Source: Thermodesulfobacterium geofontis OPF15
Lineage (GTDB): Bacteria > Desulfobacterota > Thermodesulfobacteria > Thermodesulfobacteriales > Thermodesulfobacteriaceae
DNA length: 64,000 nt
Direction: 5' to 3'
NCBI RefSeq assembly: GCF_000215975.1
Contig: NC_015682.1
Span: forward strand, 1,240,001 to 1,304,000
Shown here in pieces: positions 6,501-22,606 of this stretch. The stretch's first letter is position 1. Each line of letters begins with the position of its first letter. The translations under genes were made by a program, and so were the position numbers. A model generated the notes under the pieces. It saw nothing but the letters and a program-made list of their open reading frames with translations, did not search any database and was not told where the DNA came from.

Positions 6501-9500
6501 TTAACCTTCTCCTCCAGCTTCTTTAATTTCTAATACATGTTTATGATATTGTTCTAATGGAATGATTTTGAAAAATTTATTTAAATAGATATCAAAATTA
6601 TCAAGAATATGTTTTGCCCATAAACTTTGAGTATAGTTATAATGTCTTGTTATAAGTTCTTTTAGTTCTTTTACTTCAGCTTCTATTAAAAGTTCCCTTA
6701 AAGTTACATAAGAATAATTGAGTCTATTTTCTAACTTACCATCAAGATTTAATACATAGGCATATCCTCCGGTCATACCAGCTCCAAAATTAAAACCTAC
6801 ATTCCCAAGAACTACCACTATTCCTCCAGTCATATATTCACAACAATGAAGACCGGCTCCCTCTATTACTGCTATAGCCCCACTATTTCTAATAGCAAAT
6901 CTTTCTCCCGCTTTTCCAGCTGCATAAAGTTCACCACCTGTAGCACCATAAAGACAAGTATTTCCCATTATTACGTGATTTTGTGAATCCTCAATCCCTA
7001 CAGGTTTTATAATAATTTTTCCTCCATACATACCCTTTCCTACATAATCGTTAGCTTCTCCAATTAAGGTTAAAGTCAATCCCCTATGATTAAAAGCTCC
7101 AAAACTTTGTCCAGCTGTTCCAAAAAAAGTCAAGTTAATAGTATCCTCTGGTAGACCTTTATCTTTATATTTCACAGCTATATAATAGTTAAGTCTTGTA
7201 GGAATACTTCTGTCTACATTTCTTATAGGATATTCTTTAAAAACTTTCTCTTCTCTTTCTATATAAGGAACTATTTCTTCTTCAAGTTTTTTAGCAAGCT
7301 CTGATCTTCTTGGATTATCATTTCTTTTTACTAAACACCTTAAGGGTTTGTCTTTAGGATAATCATCTATAAGGAATTTTTTTAGTTTAATTCGTTTAGA
7401 CCCAGGATATTCCTCAAAAGTTTTTATTTCTAAAAGGTCTCTTCTTCCAATAATTTCATCTAAACTTTTGACTCCTATTTCGGAAAGAATTTCTCTAACT
7501 TCTTGAGCTACAGCTCTAAAATAAGCCATCACTTCTTCTACTTTGCCTTTAAATTTTTTTCTATGTTCACTATCTTGAGTTGCAATTCCTGTAGGACATT
7601 TATTAGTATGACAACTACGGCACATAATACATCCAAGAGCAACCATTGCAGCTGTTCCAAAACCAAATTCTTCTGCTCCAAAAAGCGCAGCTATAACTAT
7701 ATCTTTTCCTGTTCTAATAGCTCCATCAGTTTTGATAATTACTTTATCTCTAAGGTCGTTTTCCATTAAAATTTTTTGCGTCTCTGCAAGTCCGATTTCC
7801 CAATAATTTCCAGCATACTTGATAGAAGAATAAGGACTGGCACCTGTTCCCCCTTCTCCTCCACTAATTTGAACCAAATCAGCATATCCTTTAGCTACCC
7901 CAGCTGCAATTGTTCCTACTCCTGTTTCTGCAACCAATTTTACACATACTTTAGCTTTTGGATTAGCTTCTTTTAAATCATTAATTAACTGAGCAAGGTC
8001 TTCAATTGAATATATATCATGATGTGGAGGGGGAGAAATTAAGGTAACTCCTGGTTGAGAATGTCTTAATCTTGCTACGTAATCATTAACTTTATGTCCG
8101 GGGAGTTGCCCTCCTTCTCCTGGTTTTGCTCCTTGAGCTATTTTTATTTCTATTTCTTCAGCCGAAGCTAAATAAGTAGGAGTTACACCAAATCTACCAG
8201 AAGCAACTTGTTTAATAGCAGAATTTTTAATAGTCCAATATCTTTTAGGATCTTCTCCTCCCTCTCCTGAATTACTTCTCATACCTAATCTATTAGCAGC
8301 TTCAGCTAAAGTTTCATGAGCTTCGGGAGAAAGGGCTCCTAAGGACATAGCGCTTATCACGAATCTTTTTAAAATATTTTCAATAGGTTCAACCTCTTCT
8401 ATTGGTAAAGGTTTTTCTGCTTTTTTATAAGTTAAAAGATCTCTTATGAATACAGGACGGGTATTATTTGCAATTTTGGAAAATTCTTTATAATCTTCAT
8501 ATTTTTTTGTTTTTAAAAATTTATGTAATGCCTTTATTAAATAAGGGGACCAAGCATGCCATTCTCCTCCCTTTTTAAATCGCATCTCTCCCCCAATAGG
8601 GATTTCGGGTTTTTCATGTTCAAAAGCCCATTTATGTCTTTTTCTTACACTTTCTTCAATTTCTTGAATTCCATCAGCTTCTAAAGTTACTGGAGTATCA
8701 GGAAAATACTTCTCAACAAAGTCTTTATTTAGACAAACTGTTTCAAAAATTTTCCCTCCGTGATAAGAATTTAAAGTTGAAATACCCATTTTGGAGAGAA
8801 TTTTTAAAATCCCAGCTTCTAAAGCTTTTTTATAATTTAAGATAGCTGTCTCAACTTCATTTTTGATTTCTCCTTTTTCACAAAGCTCACGAATAATTTC
8901 ATAAGCTAAATAAGGATACACAGCACAAGCTCCATAACCTATAAGACAACAAATTTGATGAGTGTCTCTTGCTTCTCCTGTTTCAATTATTATGGAGACT
9001 TTTGTAACCAAATTTTTTTTCCACAAATAATGAAAAATTCCTGAAACAGCAAGCAAGCTCGGGACAGCTATTTTATCAGAAGAAATGTCTTTGTCCGAAA
9101 GTACAAGTATTTCGGTACCTTCTTTTACTAATTTTTCAGCTTCTTTAAAAAGTTCCTCTAATCCCTCCTCTAAAGTTTTATCCTTAGAAAAAAGAATAGG
9201 AAGTTTATTAACTTTAAATTGTTTTTGTTCTAATATAGCTAAAAATTCTGAAGGAAGCAAAATTGGACTATCTATTTGGAGTTTTTTAGCATGAAAAGCG
9301 GTTTCCTTTAAAAAATTACCTTTACGACCTAATGCCATATATAAAGACATTATCTTTTTTTCTCTAATGGGATCTATAGGAGGATTGGTAACCTGAGCAA
9401 ATTTTTGTCTAAAATATTTAAAGAGTAAAACTGGGTTTTCAGAAAGAGGAGGAATAGGTGTGTCGTTACCTGCAGAGAAGGTAAGTTCACTTCCATTTTC

Positions 9501-10901
9501 AGCCATGTATTTAATAACTTCATTTATATCTTCTTTAGTATAACCAAAAGCTACAAGCTTTTCCAAAAATTTGTTCTCTTTTTTAGTAAAGAAAATTTTA
9601 TTTTTAGGAACAAGTTTAGAAAGTCTTACAAGGTTTTTTTCAATCCAATCTCTATAAGGTTTAGAAGAAGCAAGTTCTTCCAAAATTTCTTCAGTCTTTT
9701 TAATAATTCCTTTTTTTAAATCTACTAAAATACTATCTCCAGGACCTAACCTACCCTTTTCTTTAATCTTTTTATTTTCCAAATCAATCATTCCCACTTC
9801 GGAACCTAATATTACAACTCCATCTTCAGTTATAATGTATCTACAAGGACGTAATCCATTTCTATCCAAGTGTGCTCCAATAGTTTCTCCATCAGTAAAA
9901 GCTATTGCTGCAGGTCCATCCCAAGGTTGCATCATAAAAGATTGGAATTCAAAAAATAAACGGACCTTTTCTGAAATATCAGGAACGTTTTCCCAAGCAG
10001 GAGGAATTAACATATTTATAGCATGGATAGGAGAATATCCAGCTAAACAAAGCAATTCAAAAACTCTGTCTAAGGATGCAGAATCGCTTTCTTCAAGAGA
10101 TACAAGAGGATCTATTAATTTTATATTTTCTCCAAAAAATTCATGCTCCAATTCATTTTGTAAAGCTAAAATCCAATTTCTATTTCCTTGCAAAGTATTT
10201 ATTTCTCCATTATGAGCTAAATATCTCAAAGGTTGAGCAAGTTTCCAATTAGGTAAAGTATTTGTAGAATAGCGCTGATGAAATAGGCATAAACTGGATT
10301 CTATAGATTCATCTTTAAGTTCAGGATAAAATTTGTCCAATTGAGGGGCTACAAACATTCCTTTGTATACTAATGTTTTAGAAGAAAGAGAAGCTATATA
10401 TACGTCATCCATTAACTCTGGATCTTTTTCAATTTTTCTTCTTAAAATATAAAGTTCTATTTCAATTTTATTTTTTTCAAGTTTTTCGACATCAAGTAAT
10501 AAATGATAAATTTTAGGCATAGTTTTTAAAGCTGCTTCACCTACTGCTGAGGTATCAACTGGAACTTCTCTCCAAGCAATAAACTTGATAGGTGTATTCT
10601 CAATATACTTTTCAATTTTTCTTTTTAAATCTTCCTTATATAGAAAAACTACACCTACAGCTAAATTATTTATATGAGAAATTTGAAGTTTATTTTTTTC
10701 TAAATATTTTGAAAAAAATCTACGTGGAATTTTTATAAGAATTCCTGCTCCGTCACCTGTTTTCCCATCTCCCCCGATAGCCCCACGATGTGTCAAATTT
10801 TTAACTGCTTCTAATCCCCATTTTACAATTTGATGACTTTCCCTATTTTTAATATCACATACAAAACCTACTCCACAGGAAGAATGGTCTAAAATTTTCA
10901 C
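6501..10901 (-). CDS. gltB: Glutamate synthase, large subunit
   Basis: Makes two glutamates from glutamine and 2-oxoglutarate. Domains in order over 1466 aa: class II glutaminase (about 9-430) with nucleophile Cys9 in SSCGVGF after an unusually short 8-residue leader, central domain (about 480-770), FMN-binding synthase domain (about 800-1170) with the 3Fe-4S cluster motif CIMCRSCHTNKCPTG near 1090-1105, and the GXGXG beta-helix (about 1200-1440). Start is GTG at 10901, about 10 bases after GGAGG. It follows nadE on the same strand after an 84-base gap and is probably in its operon. No gltD (NADPH subunit) is in the window, so the electron donor may be ferredoxin or a distant GltD. Confidence 0.97.
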   Translation of the reverse strand: MKILDHSSCGVGFVCDIKNRESHQIVKWGLEAVKNLTHRGAIGGDGKTGDGAGILIKIPRRFFSKYLEKNKLQISHINNLAVGVVFLYKEDLKRKIEKYIENTPIKFIAWREVPVDTSAVGEAALKTMPKIYHLLLDVEKLEKNKIEIELYILRRKIEKDPELMDDVYIASLSSKTLVYKGMFVAPQLDKFYPELKDESIESSLCLFHQRYSTNTLPNWKLAQPLRYLAHNGEINTLQGNRNWILALQNELEHEFFGENIKLIDPLVSLEESDSASLDRVFELLCLAGYSPIHAINMLIPPAWENVPDISEKVRLFFEFQSFMMQPWDGPAAIAFTDGETIGAHLDRNGLRPCRYIITEDGVVILGSEVGMIDLENKKIKEKGRLGPGDSILVDLKKGIIKKTEEILEELASSKPYRDWIEKNLVRLSKLVPKNKIFFTKKENKFLEKLVAFGYTKEDINEVIKYMAENGSELTFSAGNDTPIPPLSENPVLLFKYFRQKFAQVTNPPIDPIREKKIMSLYMALGRKGNFLKETAFHAKKLQIDSPILLPSEFLAILEQKQFKVNKLPILFSKDKTLEEGLEELFKEAEKLVKEGTEILVLSDKDISSDKIAVPSLLAVSGIFHYLWKKNLVTKVSIIIETGEARDTHQICCLIGYGACAVYPYLAYEIIRELCEKGEIKNEVETAILNYKKALEAGILKILSKMGISTLNSYHGGKIFETVCLNKDFVEKYFPDTPVTLEADGIQEIEESVRKRHKWAFEHEKPEIPIGGEMRFKKGGEWHAWSPYLIKALHKFLKTKKYEDYKEFSKIANNTRPVFIRDLLTYKKAEKPLPIEEVEPIENILKRFVISAMSLGALSPEAHETLAEAANRLGMRSNSGEGGEDPKRYWTIKNSAIKQVASGRFGVTPTYLASAEEIEIKIAQGAKPGEGGQLPGHKVNDYVARLRHSQPGVTLISPPPHHDIYSIEDLAQLINDLKEANPKAKVCVKLVAETGVGTIAAGVAKGYADLVQISGGEGGTGASPYSSIKYAGNYWEIGLAETQKILMENDLRDKVIIKTDGAIRTGKDIVIAALFGAEEFGFGTAAMVALGCIMCRSCHTNKCPTGIATQDSEHRKKFKGKVEEVMAYFRAVAQEVREILSEIGVKSLDEIIGRRDLLEIKTFEEYPGSKRIKLKKFLIDDYPKDKPLRCLVKRNDNPRRSELAKKLEEEIVPYIEREEKVFKEYPIRNVDRSIPTRLNYYIAVKYKDKGLPEDTINLTFFGTAGQSFGAFNHRGLTLTLIGEANDYVGKGMYGGKIIIKPVGIEDSQNHVIMGNTCLYGATGGELYAAGKAGERFAIRNSGAIAVIEGAGLHCCEYMTGGIVVVLGNVGFNFGAGMTGGYAYVLNLDGKLENRLNYSYVTLRELLIEAEVKELKELITRHYNYTQSLWAKHILDNFDIYLNKFFKIIPLEQYHKHVLEIKEAGGEG

Positions 10902-10985
10902 CTTATATCATCCTCCAATAACCTTTATTAGAAAAATATTGAAATTATAAAATTAAATTTTAAGAAAACAATATTCCTCATAAAT

Positions 10986-11750
10986 TTAAATTTTGGGAAA
11001 TGATGGCAAATTACGCTTGTGTTTGCTTCTTTTTATTAGGTTTTCTACATATATAATTCTTTCTAAGGGGATATTTAAATCCTTAGCTATATCCTTCTTT
11101 TTCATTTTTAAATCTATTAATCTATAAAGAATTTTATCAAGAAGATCATATTCTATTCCCAATTCATCTTCATCTGTTTGTCCTTCCCATAAACCTGCGG
11201 TAGGTTTTTTTGAAATAATTTTTTCGGAAACTCCCAATATTTTAGCTATCTCTTTTACTTCAGTTTTATATAAATCCAAAAGGGGAGCTATATCACTTGC
11301 TCCATCACCCCATTTAGTAAAATATCCTACTAAAAATTCAGTTTTATTTGAGGTACCTAAAACTAAATATTTTTTTGCATTAGCAATTCCATAAAGAATA
11401 ACCATTCTACTCCTTACCATTAGATTACCCTTAGTTATTTTATCTATTTCAAATCCTAAAGCTTCTTCAAATTTATTAACTATCTCTTTTATACTTATTA
11501 TTTTATAATCAATGTCTAAATTTTTACATACAAAAATTGCATCTTCAAATTCTTGATTTTGATAATAAGGCATTATTACTCCTAAAACTTTTTCTTTGCC
11601 TAAGGATTTAACAGCAAGATAAGAAGCTGTTGCACTATCAATTCCACCACTTACCCCTAACACAACGCCTTTAGCTTTACTTTCTTTTACTTTTTTTCTT
11701 ATAAAATTAACAATTTTTTCAATTACAAAATAATAATCAAGATTCCGCAT
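10986..11750 (-). CDS. nadE: NH3-dependent NAD+ synthetase
   Basis: Amidates deamido-NAD to NAD+ with ATP. The PP-loop of the adenine-nucleotide alpha-hydrolase fold is [14 protein letters not shown]. Further family motifs are [20 protein letters not shown] and [18 protein letters not shown]. There is no N-terminal nitrilase/glutaminase domain, so free ammonia is the expected amide donor. I chose the ATG at 11750 (MRNLDYYF) with GGGGA about 10 bases upstream over the TTG at 11765. Placing an ammonia-using NAD synthetase first in a nadE-gltB unit, divergent from glnA, fits a nitrogen-responsive block. An operator-like site overlaps its promoter (see 11784-11811). Confidence 0.95.
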
Positions 11751-11783
11751 AAATATTTTCCCCAAAATATCTGGCTTCTCAAA

Positions 11784-11811
11784 ATCTTATTACAAAATTT
11801 ATACCTGTCAA
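11784..11811 (-). promoter_or_regulatory. Sigma-70-like promoter of nadE-gltB with overlapping operator-like site
   Basis: On the minus strand TTGACA (11811-11806), 16-base spacer, TAAGAT (11789-11784), about 34 bases before the nadE ATG. Inside the spacer is AAATTTTGTAA (11800-11790), an 8-of-10 match to the ACAATTTTGT half-sites found upstream of glnA. If bound, it would lie between -35 and -10 and so repress. Confidence 0.45.
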
Positions 11812-11868
11812 ATTAATATTCCGATTTTTTTTCTAAAACTTTTTTATAAAATAAGCTATTTTTGTTAA

Positions 11869-11878
11869 ACAATTTTGT
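11869..11878. promoter_or_regulatory. Single ACAATTTTGT dyad in the nadE/glnA intergenic region
   Basis: ACAATTTTGT (ACAANNTTGT dyad) identical to the promoter-proximal glnA site, about 53 bases upstream of the paired sites. It could serve as a third activator site for glnA or a site for nadE. The rest of the 319-base nadE-glnA gap holds only the features listed separately. Confidence 0.4.
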
Positions 11879-11930
11879 AGTAAAATTTGAGAAGAAAATC
11901 AAATAAAACTAAATAGAAAAAGGTGTTGTT

Positions 11931-11958
11931 ACAAAATTGTTACTTTTAACAATTTTGT
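11931..11958 (+). promoter_or_regulatory. Paired activator sites upstream of glnA (ACAANNTTGT twice)
   Basis: ACAAAATTGT (11931-11940), 8 bases, ACAATTTTGT (11949-11958). The larger unit is a perfect 14-base inverted repeat (TTACAAAATTGTTA / TAACAATTTTGTAA) around CTTT. The pair ends 49 bases before the GG of the sigma-54-like element, a usual distance for an enhancer-binding protein. The same pair with the same 8-base gap and 48-base distance occurs at 17642-17669 in the other orientation, which is strong evidence that this is a real operator. The binder is inferred to be the NifA-like protein at 13485. Confidence 0.7.
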
Positions 11959-12004
11959 AATAATGATTAAGACTGAAAAAATTTGAAATATCTAATAAGA
12001 ATTT

Positions 12005-12022
12005 ATAGGCATAGATTTTGAT
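12005..12022 (+). promoter_or_regulatory. Sigma-54-like promoter of glnA
   Basis: ATAGGCATAGATTTTG followed by AT: GG at 12008-12009 and G at 12020 are separated by 10 bases, as in the -24/-12 consensus TGGCAC-N5-TTGC. The -12 element reads TTGA instead of TTGC. The 16-mer is repeated exactly on the minus strand at 17596-17581 behind the same paired operators. It ends 49 bases before the glnA ATG. Confidence 0.6.
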
Positions 12023-12069
12023 ATTTAAGAAAATTTAGAAATTCTTAAAATTAAAAGAGGAGGGTTTAT

Positions 12070-13407
12070 ATGTTTCAAGAAAAGCCAAGGGATAAAAAAG
12101 ATGTGATGGAATTGGTGAAACAGTATGATGTTAAATTTGTAAGATTGTGGTTTACAGATGTTCTTGGACAATTAAAGAGTTTTGCTGTACCTGTAGAGGA
12201 ATTAGAAATGGCTTTTGAAGAGGGTATGGGATTTGATGGTTCATCTATTAGAGGATTTGCAAGGATTGAGGAATCGGATATGATTGCTCGACCTGATCCT
12301 ACTACTTTTGCTATACTTCCATGGAGACCCAAAGAGAAAGCTGTAGCCAGAATGTTTTGCGATATTTACAATCCCGATGGAACACCTTATGAAGGGGATC
12401 CGAGATATGTTTTGAAAAAGAATTTAGAGAAAATGAAAAAAATGGGATTTACCCATTTTTATATTGGTCCTGAACTTGAATTTTTTTATTTTAAAAGTGA
12501 TAAAGCTCCAGAAATTTTAGATAAAGGTGGTTATTTTGATTATCCTATGGATGCAGCTGAAGACCTAAGAAGAGAAACTATTTTTTGTTTAGAGCAAATG
12601 GGAATCAGAGTTGAATATTCTCATCATGAGGTAGCTCCATCTCAACACGAGATAGATTTAAGATATGCTGAAGCTTTAGAAATGGCAGATATTGTAATGA
12701 CTTATAGAGTAGTGGTAAAGGAAGTTGCTAAAAAATATGGAGTTTATGCTACCTTTATGCCTAAACCAATTTTTGGAGTAAACGGAAGCGGAATGCATAC
12801 TCATCAATCTTTATTTATAGGAGATAAAAACGCCTTTTTTGATCCTAATGATCCTTTTCATCTTTCTGATGTAGCCAAAAAATACATTGCAGGGTTATTA
12901 ACCCATATTAAAGAAATAACCTTAGTGTTAAATCAATGGGTAAATTCTTATAAAAGACTTGTTCCTGGTTATGAAGCTCCAGTTTATATTGCCTGGGCAA
13001 GAAGAAATCGTTCAGCTCTTATAAGAGTTCCTATGTATAAACCTGGTAAAGAAAAGGCAACACGTATTGAGTTAAGAAGTCCTGATCCAGCTTGTAATCC
13101 CTATTTAGCTTTTGCCTGTATGCTTGCTGCAGGACTTGAAGGTATTAAAAAAGGATATAGATTACCTGATCCCATTGAAAAAGATATTTATCATTTAAGT
13201 GAAGAAGAAAGAAAAGCTTTAGGAATAGATAATCTTCCTGGAAGTCTTGGTGAAGCTATAGAATATGCTGAAAAAAGTGAATTATTAAAAGAAACTTTAG
13301 GAGAACATGTTTTTAAAGAACTTTTAAATAATAAAAAGCTTGAATGGGATGAATATAGAATTCAAGTTTTTCCTTATGAAATAGAAAAATATTTACCCAT
13401 TTTATAA
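12070..13407 (+). CDS. glnA: Glutamine synthetase, type I
   Basis: Condenses ammonia and glutamate to glutamine with ATP; forms dodecamers. 445 aa with beta-grasp N-domain and catalytic C-domain. Signatures: FDGSSIRGF, the metal-site EVAPSQHEIDLRY, NGSGMHTHQSL, and RSPDPACNPYLA. Where adenylylated GSI-beta enzymes have NLYDLPPEE, this one has KDIYHLSEEERKALGI and ends in the YRIQVFPYEIEKYL pattern of the GSI-alpha group, so feedback inhibition rather than adenylylation is expected. Strong ribosome site GAGGAGGG. The promoter region carries paired operators and a sigma-54-like element. The NifA-like gene follows after 77 bases. Confidence 0.97.
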   Translation: MFQEKPRDKKDVMELVKQYDVKFVRLWFTDVLGQLKSFAVPVEELEMAFEEGMGFDGSSIRGFARIEESDMIARPDPTTFAILPWRPKEKAVARMFCDIYNPDGTPYEGDPRYVLKKNLEKMKKMGFTHFYIGPELEFFYFKSDKAPEILDKGGYFDYPMDAAEDLRRETIFCLEQMGIRVEYSHHEVAPSQHEIDLRYAEALEMADIVMTYRVVVKEVAKKYGVYATFMPKPIFGVNGSGMHTHQSLFIGDKNAFFDPNDPFHLSDVAKKYIAGLLTHIKEITLVLNQWVNSYKRLVPGYEAPVYIAWARRNRSALIRVPMYKPGKEKATRIELRSPDPACNPYLAFACMLAAGLEGIKKGYRLPDPIEKDIYHLSEEERKALGIDNLPGSLGEAIEYAEKSELLKETLGEHVFKELLNNKKLEWDEYRIQVFPYEIEKYLPIL

Positions 13408-13484
13408 AATGCATATTCACAAAAACTATGACTGTATGAAAAAGAAAGAAATAAAAGCAAAGTATTTAGTGAGTGAAAAAAATT

Positions 13485-15038
13485 ATGAATGCTCTTGAAA
13501 GAAAGAATGCGGAATTAACAGCTCTTCTTGAAATAAGTAAAATTTTGAGTTCATCCTTTGAACTTGAAGAAAATATCTACAGAGCACTTAAAGTTCTTTC
13601 TGATTCTCTTCATATGACAAGAGGTACTGTAACTCTTCTTGATCCAGAAACATCAGAATTGAGAATAGCTGTAGCTTATGGTCTAACAAGAGAACAAATA
13701 GCAAGAGGAAAATATAAAATAGGAGAGGGTATCGTTGGAAAGGTTGTTGAAACAGGTTCACCCATTGTTGTCCCTGATATCGGGAAAGAGCCTTTATTTT
13801 TAAATAGAACAAGAGCAAGAATTAATAAAGATAACATATCCTTTCTTTGTGTACCCATAAAGATAAATGAAGAAATTCTTGGTGTCCTCTCTGTAGATAA
13901 AATTTTTGATAAAAGTATAGATTTTGAAGAGGACTTAAGGGTGCTAAATATTGTAGCTACCCTTATTGGACAGGCAATTAAACTTTATCGGAGGTTTTCA
14001 GAAGAAAAACTTAAAAGAGAGGAGCTTACCTTAGAGCTTAGGAATCGCTTTAGCATTCAAAATATTATTACTGTTTCTGATAGGATGCATGAAGTTATAA
14101 AGACTGTAATTAAGGTATCAAAAAGCAAGGCAACAGTATTACTCAGGGGAGAAAGTGGAACAGGAAAAGAGCTTATCGCTAAGGCAATTCATTTTGAAAG
14201 TCCCAGAGCAAAGGGACCTTTTATTGCTGTTAATTGTGCTGCTATTCCTGAAACCCTCCTTGAAGCAGAATTATTTGGATATGAAAGAGGAGCTTTTACA
14301 GGTGCAGTAACAGCAAAACCAGGTAAATTTGAACTTGCCAATGGGGGAACCCTCTTTCTTGATGAGATTGGAGAAACGAGCCCTGCCCTTCAAGCAAAAC
14401 TTTTGAGAGTGATTCAAGAATATACCTTTGAAAGACTTGGTGGTACAAAATCAATAAATGTTGATGTTAGAATAATTGCAGCAACAAACAAAGATTTAGA
14501 GGATATGGTAAAGAAAGGACTCTTTAGGGAAGACCTTTACTGGAGATTAAATGTAGTTTCCATATTTCTTCCACCTTTAAGAGAAAGAAAGGAAGATATA
14601 CCCCTACTTATAGAACACTTTCTAAAGAGATTTAATAAGGAATATGGAAGAAGAATATCTATTTCTTCTCAGGCGATGGAGAAACTAATAAGATATTCAT
14701 GGCCTGGTAATGTTAGAGAACTTGAAAATACTATTGAAAGACTCGTTATCCTTGCTGAGAAAGAAGAAATTACTGTTGAAGATCTTCCCATTCATATCAG
14801 GTCCGAAATGTTAAAAACTCTTAATCCTAGTAATACCTATTCTTTAAAAAAAGAAATTGAGGAATTAGAGAAGAGAAGAATAGAGGAGGCTCTAAAAAAG
14901 TGTGATTATAATCAAGCTCGTGCTGCTCGCTTGCTTGGTATTACCCAAAGACAAATTGGGTATAAAATAAAAAAATATAAAATTTTAATTCCTTCATTTC
15001 GAGCTTTTGCCTCTCTTCAAGTAGGAAACATTAAGTAA
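13485..15038 (+). CDS. NifA-like sigma-54-dependent transcriptional activator (GAF-AAA+-Fis HTH)
   Basis: Activator of sigma-54 promoters. GAF sensor domain (about 10-175, residues such as GIVGKVVETGSPIVVPDI), AAA+ domain (about 195-420) with GESGTGKE, the contact loop GAFTGA, GGTLFLDEIGE and the arginine-rich FREDLYWRLNV, and a C-terminal helix-turn-helix ARAARLLGITQRQIGYKIKKY, which resembles NifA more than NtrC. There is no receiver domain. Start: GTG at 13473 or ATG at 13485; I prefer 13485, with GTGAGTG about 9 bases upstream. It sits between glnA (77 bases upstream) and a convergent glnB operon, so control of both is likely. No nif structural genes are in the window, so a general nitrogen role is more likely than nitrogen fixation alone. 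Confidence 0.9.
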   Translation: MNALERKNAELTALLEISKILSSSFELEENIYRALKVLSDSLHMTRGTVTLLDPETSELRIAVAYGLTREQIARGKYKIGEGIVGKVVETGSPIVVPDIGKEPLFLNRTRARINKDNISFLCVPIKINEEILGVLSVDKIFDKSIDFEEDLRVLNIVATLIGQAIKLYRRFSEEKLKREELTLELRNRFSIQNIITVSDRMHEVIKTVIKVSKSKATVLLRGESGTGKELIAKAIHFESPRAKGPFIAVNCAAIPETLLEAELFGYERGAFTGAVTAKPGKFELANGGTLFLDEIGETSPALQAKLLRVIQEYTFERLGGTKSINVDVRIIAATNKDLEDMVKKGLFREDLYWRLNVVSIFLPPLRERKEDIPLLIEHFLKRFNKEYGRRISISSQAMEKLIRYSWPGNVRELENTIERLVILAEKEEITVEDLPIHIRSEMLKTLNPSNTYSLKKEIEELEKRRIEEALKKCDYNQARAARLLGITQRQIGYKIKKYKILIPSFRAFASLQVGNIK

Positions 15039-15699
15039 AAAAGGTCTCGTAAAACAGATCCGCTCTTAGACGGTATCTTGGATAAAATTTTTCTGTATTT
15101 TTTAATATTTCTTGTAAGTCTTCTCTATCCTGAAACCATTCCTTTATGATATCAGGCGTAACCTCTATATGGAACTGAAGAGCATAGGAATTATTATACT
15201 TAAAAGCCTGATTAGGATAATTCTTTGAACTTGCAAGCTTAACTGCACCTGATGGAATATCAAAAGTATCTCCATGCCATTGTAAAACCATAGTATAACC
15301 AATTGGCTCAATAAGTTGTCCAAAGATCTTATCTCTTACTCCATTAATAGTTGGTTCAATTGGTAACCAACCAATCTCCTCCTTATGTCCTCGATATACT
15401 TTTGCACCAAGAACATAAGCTATTAATTGAGCACCAAGGCATATGCCAAGGACTTTTTTATTCATCTTAAGAGCCTTTTCTATTGTACTGGCTACATCTT
15501 TAAGGAAAGGATATTGCTCCATTTCATAAACAGCCATAGGGCCACCCATTATGACAATTGATGAGAAAGTATTCAGGGAAGGAATTGGCTCACCAAGGCT
15601 TGCCTCTACAACTCTAAAAGAAATATTATTGTTTTTCAAAAAATCGAGAATTGTTCCTGGTCCTTCCGAAACAACATTTTTTATAATTAAGACTTTCAT
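15031..15699 (-). CDS. Class I glutamine amidotransferase (GMP-synthase-like)
   Basis: Glutaminase domain of the GATase1 family, stand-alone (222 aa). Nucleophile Cys in LGICLGAQLIAY, catalytic His-Glu in LQFHIEVT, oxyanion region VIMGGPMAVYE. I chose ATG 15699 because GAGG lies 6 bases upstream; an upstream start at 15711 would run through this ribosome site. It is 52 bases downstream of glnB and probably co-transcribed. It overlaps the 3' end of the NifA-like gene by 8 bases, tail to tail. Similar proteins are annotated as GMP-synthase-like without a known acceptor. Its place in a glnA-glnB block suggests glutamine hydrolysis or a regulatory role, but that is inference. Confidence 0.88.
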   Translation of the reverse strand: MKVLIIKNVVSEGPGTILDFLKNNNISFRVVEASLGEPIPSLNTFSSIVIMGGPMAVYEMEQYPFLKDVASTIEKALKMNKKVLGICLGAQLIAYVLGAKVYRGHKEEIGWLPIEPTINGVRDKIFGQLIEPIGYTMVLQWHGDTFDIPSGAVKLASSKNYPNQAFKYNNSYALQFHIEVTPDIIKEWFQDREDLQEILKNTEKFYPRYRLRADLFYETFFT

Positions 15700-15751
15700 A
15701 ATAAACCTCAATTTAGTATCTTTTCAAAATATTGCTAGCTTTTATCTTGGG

Positions 15752-16129
<378 letters not shown>

Positions 16130-16169
16130 TTAATACCTTTTGGGTTATATTATAAAGTTGTAGCTTGCA

Positions 16170-16310
16170 AAATAGAGAGGGACAGGGACTCCATTTTTTG
16201 TAGGCCTTTGAGCCTCCAAAGGAGTATGTCCCTCTGTCCCTCAACACCCGATAAGTTGGTTGGGCTAAAAAAGCCCCAGCTACTCGGGAGGATGGTGTGA
16301 GGGACTTCAA
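16170..16310 (+). ncRNA. Candidate IS110 bridge RNA (non-coding left end)
   Basis: Two strong stem-loops fill the region between the inferred left end and the transposase. Hairpin 1: GAGGGACAGGGAC (16177-16189) pairs with GTCCCTCTGTCCCTC (16228-16242, 2-base bulge), then TCC/GGA, an internal loop, and AGGC/GCCT (16202-16215). Hairpin 2: ACACC/GGTGT (16244-16298), CCGA/TCGG, an internal loop, and GGGC/GCCC (16262-16276). Two hairpins with internal loops match the known architecture of IS110 bridge RNAs, in which such loops bind target and donor DNA. Transcript ends and guide pairing are not established. GACTCCATTTT at 16187 resembles GACTCCTTTT at the right end (17551). Confidence 0.55.
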
Positions 16311-16334
16311 AAATCTTAAATCGGAGGTAGCAAA

Positions 16335-17531
16335 ATGCAATACTACGTAGGTATTGATATCTCTAAAGATTCTTTTCATTTCTGCATCCTTAATAACTCT
16401 GCTCAAACCATTGCTTCCGGCAACCTCCCTATGTCCCTTGAAGGCTTTAAATCCCTCCTTAACACCCTTAAGTCTCTCCCAGAGCCAGTTGTTGTCATGG
16501 AATCCTCTGGTAGATTCCATATCCCACTTTATCTTTTCCTCACCGAAAATAACATCCAAACTTTCATCCTTAACCCTAAGATCGTACGCAGATTCTTTGA
16601 GTTTATCTCTGCTAACAATCCCTCTAAACAAGATAAAAAAGATGCCAAAATCCTTGCTCTCTTTGCTCTTAGTAACCCCCAATTCCTTAAATCCTATCCT
16701 AAAAACTCTGAACTCCGTACCCTTTCCCGTCTCATCCAAAAACTTAAACATGATTGCTCCCGCAAAAACCTAAATCAAATACGCTCTTTCCTGATCTCCC
16801 CAGAAGCTGAAAAACACTTCAATATCTACTCCCACTCCTTCCTTAACATCCTCCTTGAATACCCTTCTGCAAAAGCTATCAAAAAAGCTAAACCCTCCGA
16901 AATCTCCGAAATCATTAAATCCTCTATACAAAAGGGTAAATCCCCATCTTTCACCCCTGAAGAACTTATCTCCCTTGCTAAATGCTCCATAGGTGTCGAT
17001 GACCCCTATCTTTCTCAAACCCTCGTATTCTACATCGAAAAACTCTTCTTCCTTGAACCAAGAATTAAAAAGCTTGAAAACATGCTTATAGAAAAATTGG
17101 ATGAAAACCAACAAGAACAAATTAAATTCATTTCCTCTATAAAAGGTATTTCTCCAAAACTTGCAAGCCTCTTTTTGGTTGAAATCGGAGATATAAAAAG
17201 ATTTTCCAATGCAAAAAAGCTTATAAAGTATGCTGGCACAGATCCAGTAATAAAACAATCTGGTAAGTATAAAGTCAAGATGAGTATATCTAAGCAAGGT
17301 TCGAGCTTCCTCAGAAATGTTCTTTTCCAAATGGCTGTAGGTGTAGTAAAATGGAATTTTTACTTCAGGTCTTACTTTTTGCGTAAGAAGAAAAATTTTG
17401 GCAGTTATAAGAAAGCAATGATAGCAGTTGTAAACAAACTCGTAAGAGTCATTTATGCAATTTGTACAAAAGGAACCTTCTTTAACCCTTCTTTTTCTAA
17501 TTTCCCTTCTCAGGAGGTCTCTCATGTTTAA
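16335..17531 (+). CDS. IS110-family transposase (DEDD recombinase)
   Basis: RNA-guided recombinase of IS110 elements. N-terminal RuvC-like DEDD domain: Asp8 (GIDISKD), Glu56 (VVMESSG), Asp100 and Asp103 (KQDKKDAK). C-terminal Transposase_20 domain with GISPKLASLFLVEIGDI and the conserved serine Ser309 in IKQSGKYK. 398 aa, ribosome site GGAGG before ATG; the gene looks intact. It is transcribed against glnB. Base use changes within the gene: to about 17080 Ile is mostly ATC and C-rich codons dominate, after it ATA and AGA/AGT codons typical of the host take over, which suggests a mosaic origin. Long antisense frames here are by-products. Confidence 0.93.
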   Translation: MQYYVGIDISKDSFHFCILNNSAQTIASGNLPMSLEGFKSLLNTLKSLPEPVVVMESSGRFHIPLYLFLTENNIQTFILNPKIVRRFFEFISANNPSKQDKKDAKILALFALSNPQFLKSYPKNSELRTLSRLIQKLKHDCSRKNLNQIRSFLISPEAEKHFNIYSHSFLNILLEYPSAKAIKKAKPSEISEIIKSSIQKGKSPSFTPEELISLAKCSIGVDDPYLSQTLVFYIEKLFFLEPRIKKLENMLIEKLDENQQEQIKFISSIKGISPKLASLFLVEIGDIKRFSNAKKLIKYAGTDPVIKQSGKYKVKMSISKQGSSFLRNVLFQMAVGVVKWNFYFRSYFLRKKKNFGSYKKAMIAVVNKLVRVIYAICTKGTFFNPSFSNFPSQEVSHV

Positions 17532-17580
17532 TTCCTATTTCCTGATAGTTGACTCCTTTTCTTAATTTCAATTAAAGATA

Positions 17581-17596
17581 CAAAATCTATGCCTAT
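17581..17596 (-). promoter_or_regulatory. Sigma-54-like promoter, displaced from glnB
   Basis: Minus strand ATAGGCATAGATTTTG, identical over 16 bases to the glnA element. It points left, toward the 3' end of the transposase, with no minus-strand gene until glnB 1.5 kb away. With the inferred IS removed it lies 55 bases from the glnB ATG. As things stand its transcript would be antisense to the transposase. Confidence 0.6.
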
Positions 17597-17641
17597 TTGT
17601 AAGTAATTGTTTTTTAGATAGTTTTTATAAAAGGACAGATT

Positions 17642-17669
17642 ACAAAATTGTGTTTAATTACAAATTTGT
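17642..17669 (-). promoter_or_regulatory. Paired activator sites of the displaced glnB promoter
   Basis: On the minus strand ACAAATTTGT (17669-17660), 8 bases, ACAATTTTGT (17651-17642), ending 48 bases before the GG of the sigma-54-like element. This is the same pair, gap and distance as upstream of glnA. The rest of the gap 17563-17847 is AT-rich; it must also hold the promoter of the FadL-type gene, but I see no clear -35/-10 pair. Confidence 0.65.
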
Positions 17670-17847
17670 CTGAAATTAATCATTTCAGTAAAAATATATC
17701 AAAATTTTGAAAAAAATAAAATTATTTTCCTAAAAATTTCTAAATTCTATTTATTTTTTAAATAATTTATTCTTGATTTATAAATAAAGTTTTGTTAAAA
17801 TTCTGAAAATTTTTTATTACCACTAAACCTTAAAAGTGAGGTGGATT

Positions 17848-19158
17848 ATGTTTTTAAACATACTTTTAGTCATTTTATGTTTTATTTCCTGTTTGGTAGT
17901 AAAAGCTTATGGAGCTGGTATTGCTATCTATGAGCAAGGAGTAAGTGGAATTGGGAATGCCTATGCAGGAGCTGCAGCTTCTGCTGAAGACGGAAGCACC
18001 ATTTTCTATAATCCTGCAGGCTTAACCAAACTCACTAAACCAGATGTTTCTCTTGGAGCCCATGTGATTATACCTAACGCTCATTTTAAAAATACAGGCT
18101 CTATAGGATATAACCCTATTACCAGATCTACCTACCCTCTTACTGGAAATAATGGGGGCAATGCAGGAGTAACAGTGGTAGTGCCTAATTTTTATTTTTC
18201 GGCTCCAGTAAGTGAACGTTTAGTGTTAGGTTTAGGAGTTAATTCTCCTTTTGGGCTTCAGACTGAGTATGATAAAAACTGGGTAGGTCGTTATCATGCC
18301 ATAAAATCTAAATTTATAACTATAAACCTTAATCCAACTATTGCTTATAAAGTAACTCCCAAATTTAGTTTAGGCTTAGGAATAAACTTTCAGTGGGCAG
18401 AGGCAGAATTAACTAATGCTTTAAACCCTATTGCTTTTTTAAGATTTGGAGACATAACTACTCAAGATGGTTTTGCTAAATTAGAAGGGGATGATTGGTC
18501 CTTTAATTGGAATGCAGGGCTTCTTTATGATCTTTCGGAGAAAACCAGAATTGGTCTTTCTTACCGAGCTAAACTAACCCATGTTTTTAGAGGCGAGGTT
18601 AATTTTTCAAACATTCCTTCAAATTCAACAAATGTCTTTAAAAAAGATGATGCTAAGGCAAGACTTAACCTTCCTCCAATGATTTCTTTTAGCGGGTTAC
18701 ATAAAATAAATAAAAACTGGACTATCCTTGCAGATGTTACCTGGACTGGCTGGAGTAGGTTTGAAGAACTAAGGATTAAGTATGAGACCCTCATTACAGG
18801 TGATACAGTTATTACTACTAAATGGGAAGATTGTTTTCGTTACTCCCTTGGACTCACTTATCAACCTAATTCCAAATGGACTTTTCGCACAGGAATAGCC
18901 TATGATGAAACTCCTATATCTTCTGATAAATACAGAACCCCGAGAATACCAGATACTGATAGATTTTGGTTAGCCTTTGGGTTAGGTTATAACCTTTCTG
19001 AAAATGCAAAGTTTGATTTAGGCTATGTGCACATTTTTTTTAAAAAATCTCATATAGACAAAGACCCGGTGAGAGAAGATCTTTTAAGGGGTGGATTAAA
19101 GGGTTATTACCGTGGGCATGTTGACATAATAAGCGTACAGCTACGTTATAATTTTTAA
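17848..19158 (+). CDS. OmpP1/FadL/TodX family outer membrane transport protein
   Basis: Outer-membrane beta-barrel for uptake of fatty acids or other hydrophobic compounds. A signal peptide is clear (MFLNILLVILCFISCLVVKAYG, cut probably after YG or AYGA). The mature N-terminus AGIAIYEQGVSGIGNAYAG...AEDGSTIFYNPAG carries the plug motif of the family (NPAGL), and the sequence ends in the aromatic SVQLRYNF pattern of an outer-membrane barrel. I chose ATG 17848 (GAGGTGG just upstream) over GTG 17836 because the signal peptide starts there. The next gene, an acyl-activating enzyme 24 bases on, fits joint uptake and activation of fatty acids. Confidence 0.92.
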   Translation: MFLNILLVILCFISCLVVKAYGAGIAIYEQGVSGIGNAYAGAAASAEDGSTIFYNPAGLTKLTKPDVSLGAHVIIPNAHFKNTGSIGYNPITRSTYPLTGNNGGNAGVTVVVPNFYFSAPVSERLVLGLGVNSPFGLQTEYDKNWVGRYHAIKSKFITINLNPTIAYKVTPKFSLGLGINFQWAEAELTNALNPIAFLRFGDITTQDGFAKLEGDDWSFNWNAGLLYDLSEKTRIGLSYRAKLTHVFRGEVNFSNIPSNSTNVFKKDDAKARLNLPPMISFSGLHKINKNWTILADVTWTGWSRFEELRIKYETLITGDTVITTKWEDCFRYSLGLTYQPNSKWTFRTGIAYDETPISSDKYRTPRIPDTDRFWLAFGLGYNLSENAKFDLGYVHIFFKKSHIDKDPVREDLLRGGLKGYYRGHVDIISVQLRYNF

Positions 19159-19182
19159 AACTTTAGAATAAGGTTAAGAAAG

Positions 19183-20709
19183 ATGCAACTTCATGAAAAA
19201 TTTATTTATACTGCTAAAACCTATTCTAATAAAATAGCTATTGTAGATAAGCTGATTGAAAAAAGATTTACCTACCAGCAAACTTTAATTGCAAGCCTTA
19301 TTTTTTCTCGAAAAATAAAAAGGTTTAGAGAGCGGTTAATAGGGATTATGCTTCCAAACTCTGCTGTGGCTATTTTTACCGTTATAGGAACTCTTATGGC
19401 AGAAAAAATTCCTGTGATGCTTAACTATTCTACTGGAGCTGAATATAACCTAAAATATGCCAGAGAAAAGTGCAATTTTCGTACTGTGATTACTTCTCAA
19501 AAATTGCTTGAAAGGGTAAATTGCCCAATATTAGAAAACATGGAATTTGTAGAAAATTGGATAGAAGAGATAGACCTAAAAGAGAAAGTTATAGCTTCTT
19601 TTATCTCAAAACTCCCCTTAAAGTTTTTGATGAGCTATTGTGGTGTTGATGGAGATCCTGAAAAAACAGCAGTTATTTTGTTTACCAGTGGAACTGAGAA
19701 GGATCCTAAAGCAGTAGAATTAAGTCATAAAAACATTCTTAGCAATATAGAAGGCTTTAGCCAAATGGCTAAACTTACTGAAAAAGATGTCATCATGTCT
19801 ATTTTACCTTATTTTCATGTGTTTGGACTTACAGTAAATCTCTGGACCCCTCTTTATCATGGTATGACCTTAATTACCTATCCAACACCGCTTGATTACC
19901 AAAAAATATGTCAGATTGTCAAAGGAGAAAAACCTACACTTATGGCAGCTACTCCCAGTTTTTGGTGGGGATACCTTAAAAAATCAGAACCAGGTACCTT
20001 TGACAGCTTAAGGCTTATGATAAGTGGTGCAGATAAATGTCCTCAACCCCTTAGAGATACCTTTTGGGAAAAACATAAAAAACTTCTTTTAGAAGGTTAT
20101 GGAACTACAGAAACTTCTCCTGTCATTTCCGTTAATATGCCCGATGCTTACAAACCTGGAAGTGTAGGAAAACCACTTCCCAATCTTGAAGTAATGATAG
20201 AAAACTATGAAACAGGAGAAAAATGTGGTCCTAATGAGATAGGAAGGATATTAGTAAGGGGTCCCAATGTTATGAAAGGTTATTTTAACGACTTAGAAGA
20301 AACATCTATGAGGATAAGACACGGATGGTATGATACAGGAGATATGGGATATTTAGACGAAGATGGGTATTTATGGCATGTAGGAAGACTTAAGAGGTTT
20401 GTCAAAATAGGTGGAGAGATGATTTCTTTAGTAAAGGTGGAAGACGAGTTAGAAAAGGTTTTGCCTAAGAATGTAGAATGTTGCGTAGTGGAAATACCTG
20501 ACGAAGTAAAAGGAGCTAAAATTGTTGCTGTAGTAAGCCAAAAAATAGATGAAAAAGCAATTTTAAAACAACTTGCTAAGGTTCTTCCTAATTTAGCTAT
20601 TCCAAAACACTTTGTAGTAATGGAAGACCTTCCTAAAATGGGGAGCGGAAAGATAGACTTTCGAAAGGTTCAAGAACTGATAATGGAAAAATTAGGTCTT
20701 AAAGTCTAA
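19183..20709 (+). CDS. AMP-dependent acyl-ACP/acyl-CoA synthetase (Aas-like)
   Basis: Adenylate-forming ligase that activates a fatty acid as acyl-AMP and transfers it to a thiol. Motifs: P-loop FTSGTEKDPKAVELSH (about 166-181), YGTTETSP (about 306-313), DTGDMGYLDEDGYLWHVGR (about 384-402) and C-terminal lysine region KMGSGKIDFRKV. The block PVMLNYSTGAEYNLKYAREKC and overall pattern resemble the synthetase half of Aas (2-acylglycerophosphoethanolamine acyltransferase/acyl-ACP synthetase), so the acceptor may be ACP. Co-directional with the FadL-type porin 24 bases upstream. Substrate chain length is unknown. Confidence 0.88.
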   Translation: MQLHEKFIYTAKTYSNKIAIVDKLIEKRFTYQQTLIASLIFSRKIKRFRERLIGIMLPNSAVAIFTVIGTLMAEKIPVMLNYSTGAEYNLKYAREKCNFRTVITSQKLLERVNCPILENMEFVENWIEEIDLKEKVIASFISKLPLKFLMSYCGVDGDPEKTAVILFTSGTEKDPKAVELSHKNILSNIEGFSQMAKLTEKDVIMSILPYFHVFGLTVNLWTPLYHGMTLITYPTPLDYQKICQIVKGEKPTLMAATPSFWWGYLKKSEPGTFDSLRLMISGADKCPQPLRDTFWEKHKKLLLEGYGTTETSPVISVNMPDAYKPGSVGKPLPNLEVMIENYETGEKCGPNEIGRILVRGPNVMKGYFNDLEETSMRIRHGWYDTGDMGYLDEDGYLWHVGRLKRFVKIGGEMISLVKVEDELEKVLPKNVECCVVEIPDEVKGAKIVAVVSQKIDEKAILKQLAKVLPNLAIPKHFVVMEDLPKMGSGKIDFRKVQELIMEKLGLKV

Positions 20710-20714
20710 AATTT

Positions 20715-20912
20715 TTATTCTTCCTTCCAAGAGATTGCTCCTACAGGACAACTATTTATAGCTTCTTCACAATTACATTGAGAACAGGCATCTTGATTTT
20801 TTACTTGTGCTTTCTCAATTGATTCATTAAGCTCAAAAACTTCAGGACATATTTCTACACAAGTTCCACATCCTATACAAAGTTCCTCATCAATAGTTAA
20901 AATTTTAGCCAT
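20715..20912 (-). CDS. Ferredoxin, 4Fe-4S type
   Basis: Small electron carrier, 65 aa. CIGCGTCVEICPEVF provides three cluster cysteines and the distant NSCPVGAI the fourth, the pattern of single 4Fe-4S ferredoxins. The extra cysteines (C22 and those in CSQCNCEE) may form a disulfide or, less likely, part of a second cluster. Ribosome site AGGAGG before the ATG. It is the last gene of a minus-strand unit with a flavodoxin-like gene and mrp. Confidence 0.93.
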   Translation of the reverse strand: MAKILTIDEELCIGCGTCVEICPEVFELNESIEKAQVKNQDACSQCNCEEAINSCPVGAISWKEE

Positions 20913-20996
20913 TTCAAACCTCCTAAGTGTTTTTAAATTAAAAATAAATCATAAATTTTAAAAATCAATAACTTTACTAAATAAATTTTAAAAGTA

Positions 20997-21422
20997 TTAA
21001 ATTTTAATTTCTTTATAAAATCCTGAATCCCAAAGTTTTTTCTTAATAAAGATTATTTTAATTTCTTGAGCTATTTTTGAGGTAATTTTATAATATAACC
21101 AATAATAAAATTTTTCTCCCCAGCCCCTATAACTTATTATCATAACAAGGGTTTTAAAATGCTTATTTTTAAGCTTTTTTAGAAAATAGGTTACAGGTGG
21201 GCAATTAAAAGTCCATTTAGGAAAGCAAAGAATTATCGTATCACTTGAAGGAGGTTCAAATTTTGCTTTGAAAGGTAAATAAGGGATAAAAGAAAGGATA
21301 AGCCAAATAAAATAAGGTAATTTATAGGTTTTTATTTCTCTTGGTTTTATTTTAAATTTCTTGCCTAAATGATCTGCTATCTCTTTTGAAGTCCCTGTAT
21401 AGGTAAAATAATAAATCTCCAA
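20997..21422 (-). CDS. Flavodoxin-like protein
   Basis: Resembles the flavodoxin domain of EFR1-type proteins. The phosphate loop YFTYTGTSKEIADHL (about 4-19, cf. TGTG/TGNT in flavodoxins) binds FMN phosphate, and FPKWTFNCPPVTYFL and VMIISYRGWGEKFYY are in the places of the other FMN-contact loops. At 141 aa it is the flavodoxin fold alone; the ferredoxin half of EFR1 proteins is absent, though a separate ferredoxin gene follows 84 bases downstream. It starts 17 bases after mrp ends. The redox partner is unknown. Confidence 0.75.
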   Translation of the reverse strand: MEIYYFTYTGTSKEIADHLGKKFKIKPREIKTYKLPYFIWLILSFIPYLPFKAKFEPPSSDTIILCFPKWTFNCPPVTYFLKKLKNKHFKTLVMIISYRGWGEKFYYWLYYKITSKIAQEIKIIFIKKKLWDSGFYKEIKI

Positions 21423-21439
21423 TTTTAAGTACTTTTTAA

Positions 21440-22606
21440 TTAATGAAGTTGTTTTTCTTTTAAATACTCTTCAATTAAGCTATCTGGGGTTTCAGTTGAA
21501 GTATCTGTAACCAAAACTTTTATTTCATTTTGAGAGAGATAATCTGCTAATTCCTTTGGAGGATCAAAAAGAAGGACATGGGTAACTACCTGTTCTTTTA
21601 AAAAATCAATTAGTCCTTGATTTTCTGCTTTTTTTACTACATCCTTTACTAAAATTTTATTATTTTCTACATCATAAAGGGCAAAAAGTTCAAATTTTTC
21701 TGGATCAGTTTCAATTTTAGAGGGTGTGCTTATAGGAATAGCTATCCTCATAAATTTTTCTTCTAAAATATCTTTTTTCATCTCTTCCGTAGCAACAATT
21801 ATATTTCTAACCAATTCTTCAAAAGCTTTAGCAGTTACACTTTCCGGATAAGCTGCTATTAATGGTTTACCCGCATCTCCAGTATCTACTATACGTGGGT
21901 CTACAGGAATTCTACCTAAAAATCTAATTCCTAATTCATCAGCTAATTTTTGTCCCCCACCCTTTTTAAAAATATCAACTGGTTTCCCGCAATGAGGGCA
22001 AATAAAACCACTCATATTTTCAACTATACCGAGAATTCTTAATTTTATTTTTTGACAAAATCTTATTGCTTTTTTAACATCTATTAAAGATACTTCTTGA
22101 GGGGTTGTTACTATAAGAGCATAGGCATCAGGTATAGTTTTTGCGACTGTTAAAGGTTCATCACCTGTTCCAGGAGGTGAATCAATTACTAAATAATCCA
22201 GTTCTCCCCAGTCTATATCTCCTATAAACTGCCTTATAGCAGAATGCTTAATAGGTCCTCTCCAGATAATAGCTGTATCTTCAGAAGGTAACAAAGGCTC
22301 AATAGAAAGAAACTTTAAATTAGGAGAATATTTAATTGCACCTAATCTTCCATCAGGTCTTCTTGAAAGTTTCAAATCTCTTGCACCAAGCATTTTAGGA
22401 ACATTAGGACCGTGTAAATCCACATCTAAAAGTCCTACCATAAAATCCTGTAAAGACAAACCTACTGCTATATTTACTGCTACAGTGCTTTTCCCTACCC
22501 CACCTTTCCCAGACATAACAAGTATTTTATGTTTTATTTTGGAAAGCTGTTCTCTTAATTTTTTATCTTGTTGTTCCATAATGAAACTTTTTTCTTTTTT
22601 AATCAT
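21440..22606 (-). CDS. apbC: Mrp/ApbC-type Fe-S carrier ATPase fused to a NifX/NafY-like domain
   Basis: Mrp/NBP35 P-loop ATPase (about 20-275) that carries Fe-S clusters: deviant Walker A GKGGVGKST, DLHGPNVPKMLG, DSPPGTGDE, and the cluster-binding CxxC in ICPHCGKP. After about residue 285 (MRIAIPISTPSKIETD) a second domain follows that looks like the NifX/NafY dinitrogenase-cofactor fold, ending with LVTDTSTETPDSLIEEYL. Such fusions occur in anaerobes. Start ATG 22606 is set by GGAGGTG 7 bases upstream. It leads a unit with flavodoxin-like and ferredoxin genes, fitting Fe-S or electron-transfer work in the cytosol. Confidence 0.9.
   Translation of the reverse strand: MIKKEKSFIMEQQDKKLREQLSKIKHKILVMSGKGGVGKSTVAVNIAVGLSLQDFMVGLLDVDLHGPNVPKMLGARDLKLSRRPDGRLGAIKYSPNLKFLSIEPLLPSEDTAIIWRGPIKHSAIRQFIGDIDWGELDYLVIDSPPGTGDEPLTVAKTIPDAYALIVTTPQEVSLIDVKKAIRFCQKIKLRILGIVENMSGFICPHCGKPVDIFKKGGGQKLADELGIRFLGRIPVDPRIVDTGDAGKPLIAAYPESVTAKAFEELVRNIIVATEEMKKDILEEKFMRIAIPISTPSKIETDPEKFELFALYDVENNKILVKDVVKKAENQGLIDFLKEQVVTHVLLFDPPKELADYLSQNEIKVLVTDTSTETPDSLIEEYLKEKQLH

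Follow-up and report, generated by a model that had tools for sequence, protein, structure and literature searches.

The window, by which we mean the whole 64-kb stretch of DNA analyzed from T. geofontis, a thermophilic sulfate reducer, contains two copies of a predicted promoter module, termed module 1 and module 2. The order from left to right is nadE (10986-11765, minus strand), module 1, glnA, the gene for a NifA-like protein, a glutamine amidotransferase (GATase) gene, glnB, an IS110 transposase gene and module 2. The glnA gene (12070-13407, plus strand, ATG at 12070) codes for a type I glutamine synthetase (TIGR00653, 551.8 bits). It is followed by the gene for a NifA-like one-component activator (13473-15038, plus strand, with an ATG codon at 13485), which consists of a GAF domain, an AAA+ sigma-54 interaction domain and a Fis-type HTH. 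The glnB gene (15752-16093, minus strand, PF00543) is the sole PII gene found in the genome, and the gene for the IS110-family transposase (16335-17531, plus strand) is inserted between it and module 2. The stand-alone class-I glutamine amidotransferase (15031-15711, minus strand) is a recurrent neighbor of glnA or glnB in relatives.

Two Modules with the Same Layout

Module 1 starts with a promoter-distal dyad, ACAAAATTGT (11931-11940, plus strand), which is separated by a spacer of eight nucleotides (period 18) from the promoter-proximal dyad, ACAATTTTGT (11949-11958, plus strand). A gap of 49 nucleotides lies between this dyad and the GG of the predicted sigma-54 -24/-12 element of glnA, ATAGGCATAGATTTTG (12005-12020, plus strand). 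Module 2 is located on the minus strand and contains the distal dyad ACAAATTTGT (17660-17669), the proximal dyad ACAATTTTGT (17642-17651) and, after a gap of 48 nucleotides, a predicted sigma-54 -24/-12 element (17581-17596) that is identical to the 16-mer of module 1. The layout shared by both copies is ACAAWWTTGT-N8-ACAATTTTGT-N48/49-GGCATAGATTTTG. An earlier sequence-only reading of this DNA had reported the sites, spacers and distances of both modules, and these are exact to the base. A third, isolated dyad, ACAATTTTGT, was found between nadE and glnA (11869-11878).

The agreement between the two copies had been judged very unlikely by chance, and our counts bear this out: the window contains two exact dyad pairs, while dinucleotide shuffling gives an expectation of 0.04 even at two mismatches. 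Genome-wide (1,634,377 bp, one contig), the exact dyad pair occurs only at modules 1 and 2, and the reversed pattern does not occur. At three mismatches, 31 real matches compare with 44 matches to the reversed pattern. Since the real count is not above this control, only the exact pairs stand out; looser dyads across the genome were rejected as extra sites, and the genome offers no basis for claiming additional, diluted members. Rfam families were not found in window positions 9000-22000, and neither a plasmid search nor a genome-contig search with the NifA-like protein as query yielded a match.

The second module had been described as lying upstream of glnB. Its orientation toward glnB is correct, but the IS110 element intervenes, so that module 2 aims at glnB across it. 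The element extends from approximately 16145 to 17540 and is present in one full copy in the genome; a 116-bp fragment from the left, non-coding part recurs at genome position 1181217. The IS110 insertion may have separated the module 2 promoter from glnB and thereby orphaned the module. An ammonium transporter was not found in the T. geofontis genome, though PII is present. The amt gene adjoins glnB in several relatives, and an amt remnant at the IS110 site was considered and rejected, as tblastn revealed none. For nadE, we also considered AGGTATAAATTTTGTA (minus strand) as a sigma-54 promoter. This reading was not adopted, as the GG is missing in the G008 ortholog and both sequences retain TTGACA, in agreement with a sigma-70 promoter.

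Conservation of the Module in Relatives

For the comparison with relatives we used a set of 16 nitrogen-gene promoters from 14 genomes, comprising 11 glnA promoters, glutamate synthase promoters, the NAD synthase promoter of G024 and module 2. Five of the 16 entered the set because the dyad search found them; the 11 glnA promoters did not. When all 4-mer inverted repeats with spacers of 0-14 were counted without bias, ACAA-N2-TTGT ranked first: it is present in 13 of the 16 promoters versus 0.19 expected from dinucleotide shuffles. A chance origin of the modules was rejected on the basis of the shuffle, genome-wide and inverted-repeat counts. Among the glnA promoters, all of which come from genomes with an ortholog of the NifA-like protein, nine of 11 contain at least one perfect ACAANNTTGT dyad and all 11 contain a sigma-54-like element.

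Downstream of the dyads, a sigma-54-like element was identified in all 16 promoters. Its consensus, WGGCATrnnTTTTG, closely resembles the motif published for sigma-54, TTGGCATNNNNNTTGCT (PMC6615313). The GG and the -12 G were demanded by the element finder, so only the other positions, which were scored and not required, count as evidence; here, the AT after GGC and the TT before the G are both present in 16/16 promoters. Every promoter of the set likewise shows GG-N10-G with a GGCA/TTG core, and the two copies in the window do not differ in it. The rpoN gene is present in the T. geofontis genome (PF04552 match at G000:C1:1388561, E 1.5e-62). Both modules are most likely sigma-54 promoters with upstream dyads, as predicted from these elements.

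Conservation in relatives had been proposed as a check, and dyads together with a GGCATnnnnTTTTG sigma-54 element indeed recur there ahead of glnA and of further genes for nitrogen assimilation. The module is also present beyond the family, in the MAG L036 (Syntrophorhabdaceae, class Syntrophorhabdia, GC 43%), which contains ACAATTTTGT-N8-ACAATTTTGT, followed after 45 bp by GGCATTACTTTTGC. It is located there upstream of a small ORF, a GATase gene and glnA, with the gene for a 68% NifA homolog nearby. A second dyad with TGGCACAGTATTTGA lies between the NifA homolog gene and a gene run that includes amt and glnB. The predicted L036 module is a recurrence independent of the family. In G009 (92% complete), both glnA promoters are without dyad and without sigma-54 element, and the NifA-like ortholog was also not found.

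The NifA-Like Protein as Candidate Reader of the Dyads

The NifA-like protein reaches 576.3 bits on the NCBI nifA model TIGR01817 (cut-off 528.85), and the GAF domain, the Sigma54_activat domain with its GAFTGA motif and the HTH_8 domain are all present. Its best match in the structural database is 9qq6, a full-length Nif-specific regulatory protein. A search of solved structures with the GAF domain only identified Aquifex Nlh1 (4g3k) as the best match with 103 bits, compared with 78 for Nlh2 and 72 for the GAF domain of NifA. In the T. geofontis genome, no nifH above the cut-off was found by HMM search (best 26 bits). The nifA-model match without detected nitrogenase (window 13473-15038) represents an annotation trap.

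Orthologs with 61-70% identity adjoin glnA or a glutamate synthase-glnA operon in most relatives, and their recognition helices share T-x-RQ-x-x-Y, which is of the NifA type. Because of this synteny, the NifA-type helix and the absence of the protein from G009, which also lacks the module, the NifA-like protein is probably the best candidate reader of the dyads. The same three points favor the earlier proposal that the NifA-like gene at 13485 encodes the likely binder. It is unlikely that the dyads are real sigma-54 enhancers read by another enhancer-binding protein (a response regulator) and that the NifA-like gene is a mere neighbor: although a first look at the genome yielded 18 candidates for other enhancer-binding proteins, the recognition helices of the three T. 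geofontis activators examined (SRKQLRTKM, SYKTFWYRL and NRTTFIEKL) are unrelated, linkage of the NifA-like gene with dyad-bearing promoters was seen across many genomes as well as in a MAG from another class, and regulator and module are missing together in G009. A different reader would fit the dyad pairs with sigma-54 elements that also precede a cytochrome gene, including in one genome where no NifA-like ortholog was detected.

This gene encodes a small single-haem c-type cytochrome (approximately 81-84 amino acids) and is preceded by a dyad pair with a period of 21-23 and a sigma-54-like element in G005, G020 and G022. A very similar promoter is present in G003, where the reading frame was not recovered (promoters in L217, L218, L223 and L226, around position 1440-1550). 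In addition, a single ACAANNTTGT dyad with a sigma-54-like element was found upstream of the gene for a conserved secreted protein, for which no Pfam family was found, in G014, G020, G022 and G024 (L118, L119, L132 and L137, around position 1500-1580). Nitrogen genes are thus not the only ones preceded by the putative operator dyad. The NifA-like ortholog was not found in G005, where glnA is located at a contig end. Since the cytochrome dyads of G005 occur without a detected regulator, a further activator may recognize this dyad; alternatively, the regulon may be wider.

Relatives also encode a more distant NifA paralog (47-50% identity) with an HTH resembling structure 2m8g. The glnB promoter beside this paralog contains TTGTTAACATGTTAACAA or close variants and a sigma-54-like element in G005, G018 and G020; sites of this type, found upstream of glnB in L146, L147 and L197, have the TGT-N10-ACA arrangement. 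In G003, glnB is located beside the same kind of paralog and has a ACAAAATTGT dyad instead. Three promoters stand behind the resulting suggestion that two NifA-type proteins use different operator geometry. A paralog with a very similar recognition helix adjoins glnA copies whose promoters are without perfect dyads, which counts against the NifA-like activator as reader of the dyads.

Geometry of the Dyads

The start-to-start distance of the dyads is 17-20 bp in one set of promoters and 28-30 bp in the other, and the gap between them is 7-10 or 18-20 bp (8 in the window). Outer dyads 28-30 bp apart were found in G003, G007, G018, G022 and G024. Conservation is equally high in the outer and the inner half-sites. 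The phase concentration at periods of 10-12 bp was reached by none of 20,000 uniform random sets, a result to be taken as indicative, as the promoters are related and few of them are independent. The proximal dyad is located 44-57 bp upstream of the GG in most promoters and 69-103 bp upstream in G018, G020, G022 and G024.

Since the gap varies while the dyads persist, and since the outer half-sites are equally conserved, the 10-bp dyad is the unit. The sequence-only reading had described a specific, repeated site that differs from TGT-N10-ACA, and this part stands. Its definition of the operator as TGT-N8-ACA was rejected, as the gap varies from 7 to 20 across species with the 10-bp dyad intact. 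The conserved outer half-sites also argue against a dimer that bridges the two dyads across their gap (TTGT-N7..10-ACAA, a shortened form of the NifA site), in which case the 10-bp dyads would be by-products of overlapping sites. So do the five genomes with outer dyads 28-30 bp apart, in which the gap shifts by a whole turn and the dyads persist. A gap-spanning dimer is rather improbable to us, even though TTGT-N8/9/10-ACAA is also enriched (three, four and three promoters, respectively), classical NifA reads TGT-N10-ACA (PMC10590331) and Desulfovibrio activators read TGT/ACA 9, 11 or 12 bp apart (PMC4641369).

That the dyads are repressor operators and the sigma-54-like element is fortuitous is highly improbable: in seven relatives, the divergently oriented nifA-like gene does have a dyad that overlaps its sigma-70 promoter and may repress there, but the sigma-54-like element is found in 16/16 promoters at a distance from the proximal dyad that is usual for a UAS, and inspection of the alignments by eye showed no conserved sigma-70 element for the glnA transcripts.

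Discussion

We assign a probability of about 0.75 to the overall reading that a two-dyad upstream activating sequence (UAS) and a sigma-54 promoter, read by the NifA-like activator, govern ammonium assimilation. The two modules would most likely be copies of a conserved sigma-54 nitrogen-assimilation module that is read by an Nlh1-like activator. From the sequences, their conservation, the synteny, the co-occurrence and the presence of rpoN we infer binding, activation, signal and feedback as follows. The module would be a sigma-54 promoter with a UAS of two 10-bp ACAAWWTTGT palindromes, each of which would be bound by one dimer of the neighboring GAF-domain one-component activator. The two dimers, placed on roughly the same helical face by the period of 17-20 or 28-30 bp, would seed an AAA+ oligomer, which would open the sigma-54 polymerase complex approximately 50 bp downstream. 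The predicted regulon is ammonium assimilation, with glnA and in relatives also glutamate synthase, glnB and the glutamine-dependent NAD synthase. The NifA-like activator thus probably regulates nitrogen assimilation and not fixation.

Nitrogen status is probably reported by the GAF domain rather than by PII. HMM searches of G002, G004, G007 and G008 gave no match for PII, though regulator and module are present, which suggests that the GAF domain might sense the nitrogen signal directly and that PII would not be needed. The regulator gene of T. geofontis comes directly after glnA, and the DNA between the two shows no terminator-like site; it is possibly co-transcribed with glnA, which would result in positive feedback. 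Seven relatives have regulator gene and glnA in divergent orientation, and their distal dyad, whether perfect or degenerate, is located within a TTGCAC-N16/17-TATAAT-like sequence just before the regulator start codon. The dyad would there lie within the regulator's own sigma-70 promoter, making self-repression probable.

In the control of glnA by NtrB/NtrC, a pair of neighboring activator dyads likewise precedes the sigma-54 promoter of glnA. The NifA-like protein differs from NtrC in that it has a GAF domain and not a phosphorylated receiver domain, and the operator sequence is another one. With the NifA of diazotrophs it shares the domain order, a score above the nifA model cut-off, 9qq6 as best structural match and a similar helix (T-P-R-Q-I-A-Y in NifA, T-Q-R-Q-I-G-Y here). 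It differs in that no nitrogenase was found here, in its predicted assimilation targets and in the ACAA-N2-TTGT dyads, which take the place of TGT-N10-ACA. Nlh1 of Aquifex aeolicus, for which a role in nitrogen assimilation rather than fixation has been speculated (review, PMC9866876), is likewise a one-component GAF-AAA+-Fis sigma-54 activator and has the closest GAF domain (4g3k). Operator, targets and neighbors are predicted here by comparison, whereas no Nlh1 operator was found in the literature examined. DVU1949 of Desulfovibrio vulgaris is a single-component sigma-54 activator with predicted control of nitrogen metabolism and transport operons (PMC4641369). It resembles the present case as a one-component sigma-54 nitrogen activator in a sulfate reducer; its gene context, iorAB, is different.

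The analysis provides a predicted operator and regulon for proteins that automated pipelines label NifA although nitrogenase was not detected in their genomes. It is also a warning that a nifA annotation should not be taken as a sign of nitrogen fixation. Defined DNA sites and thermophile proteins now allow the proposed assimilation role of Nlh1 to be tested directly. Genomes with regulator and module in which PII was not detected suggest a nitrogen sensor that is simple and direct. We tentatively propose, as a possibility that we hold with less than even confidence, that a PII-independent one-component NifA-type activator with ACAAWWTTGT sites could serve non-diazotrophic Thermodesulfobacteriota as their general switch for ammonium assimilation, and that the paralog beside glnB-amt could read a TGT-N10-ACA-like site. 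If this is true, two NifA-type proteins would split one regulatory task by a changed operator geometry, and the NifA of nitrogen fixation could be a later specialization of an assimilation regulator.
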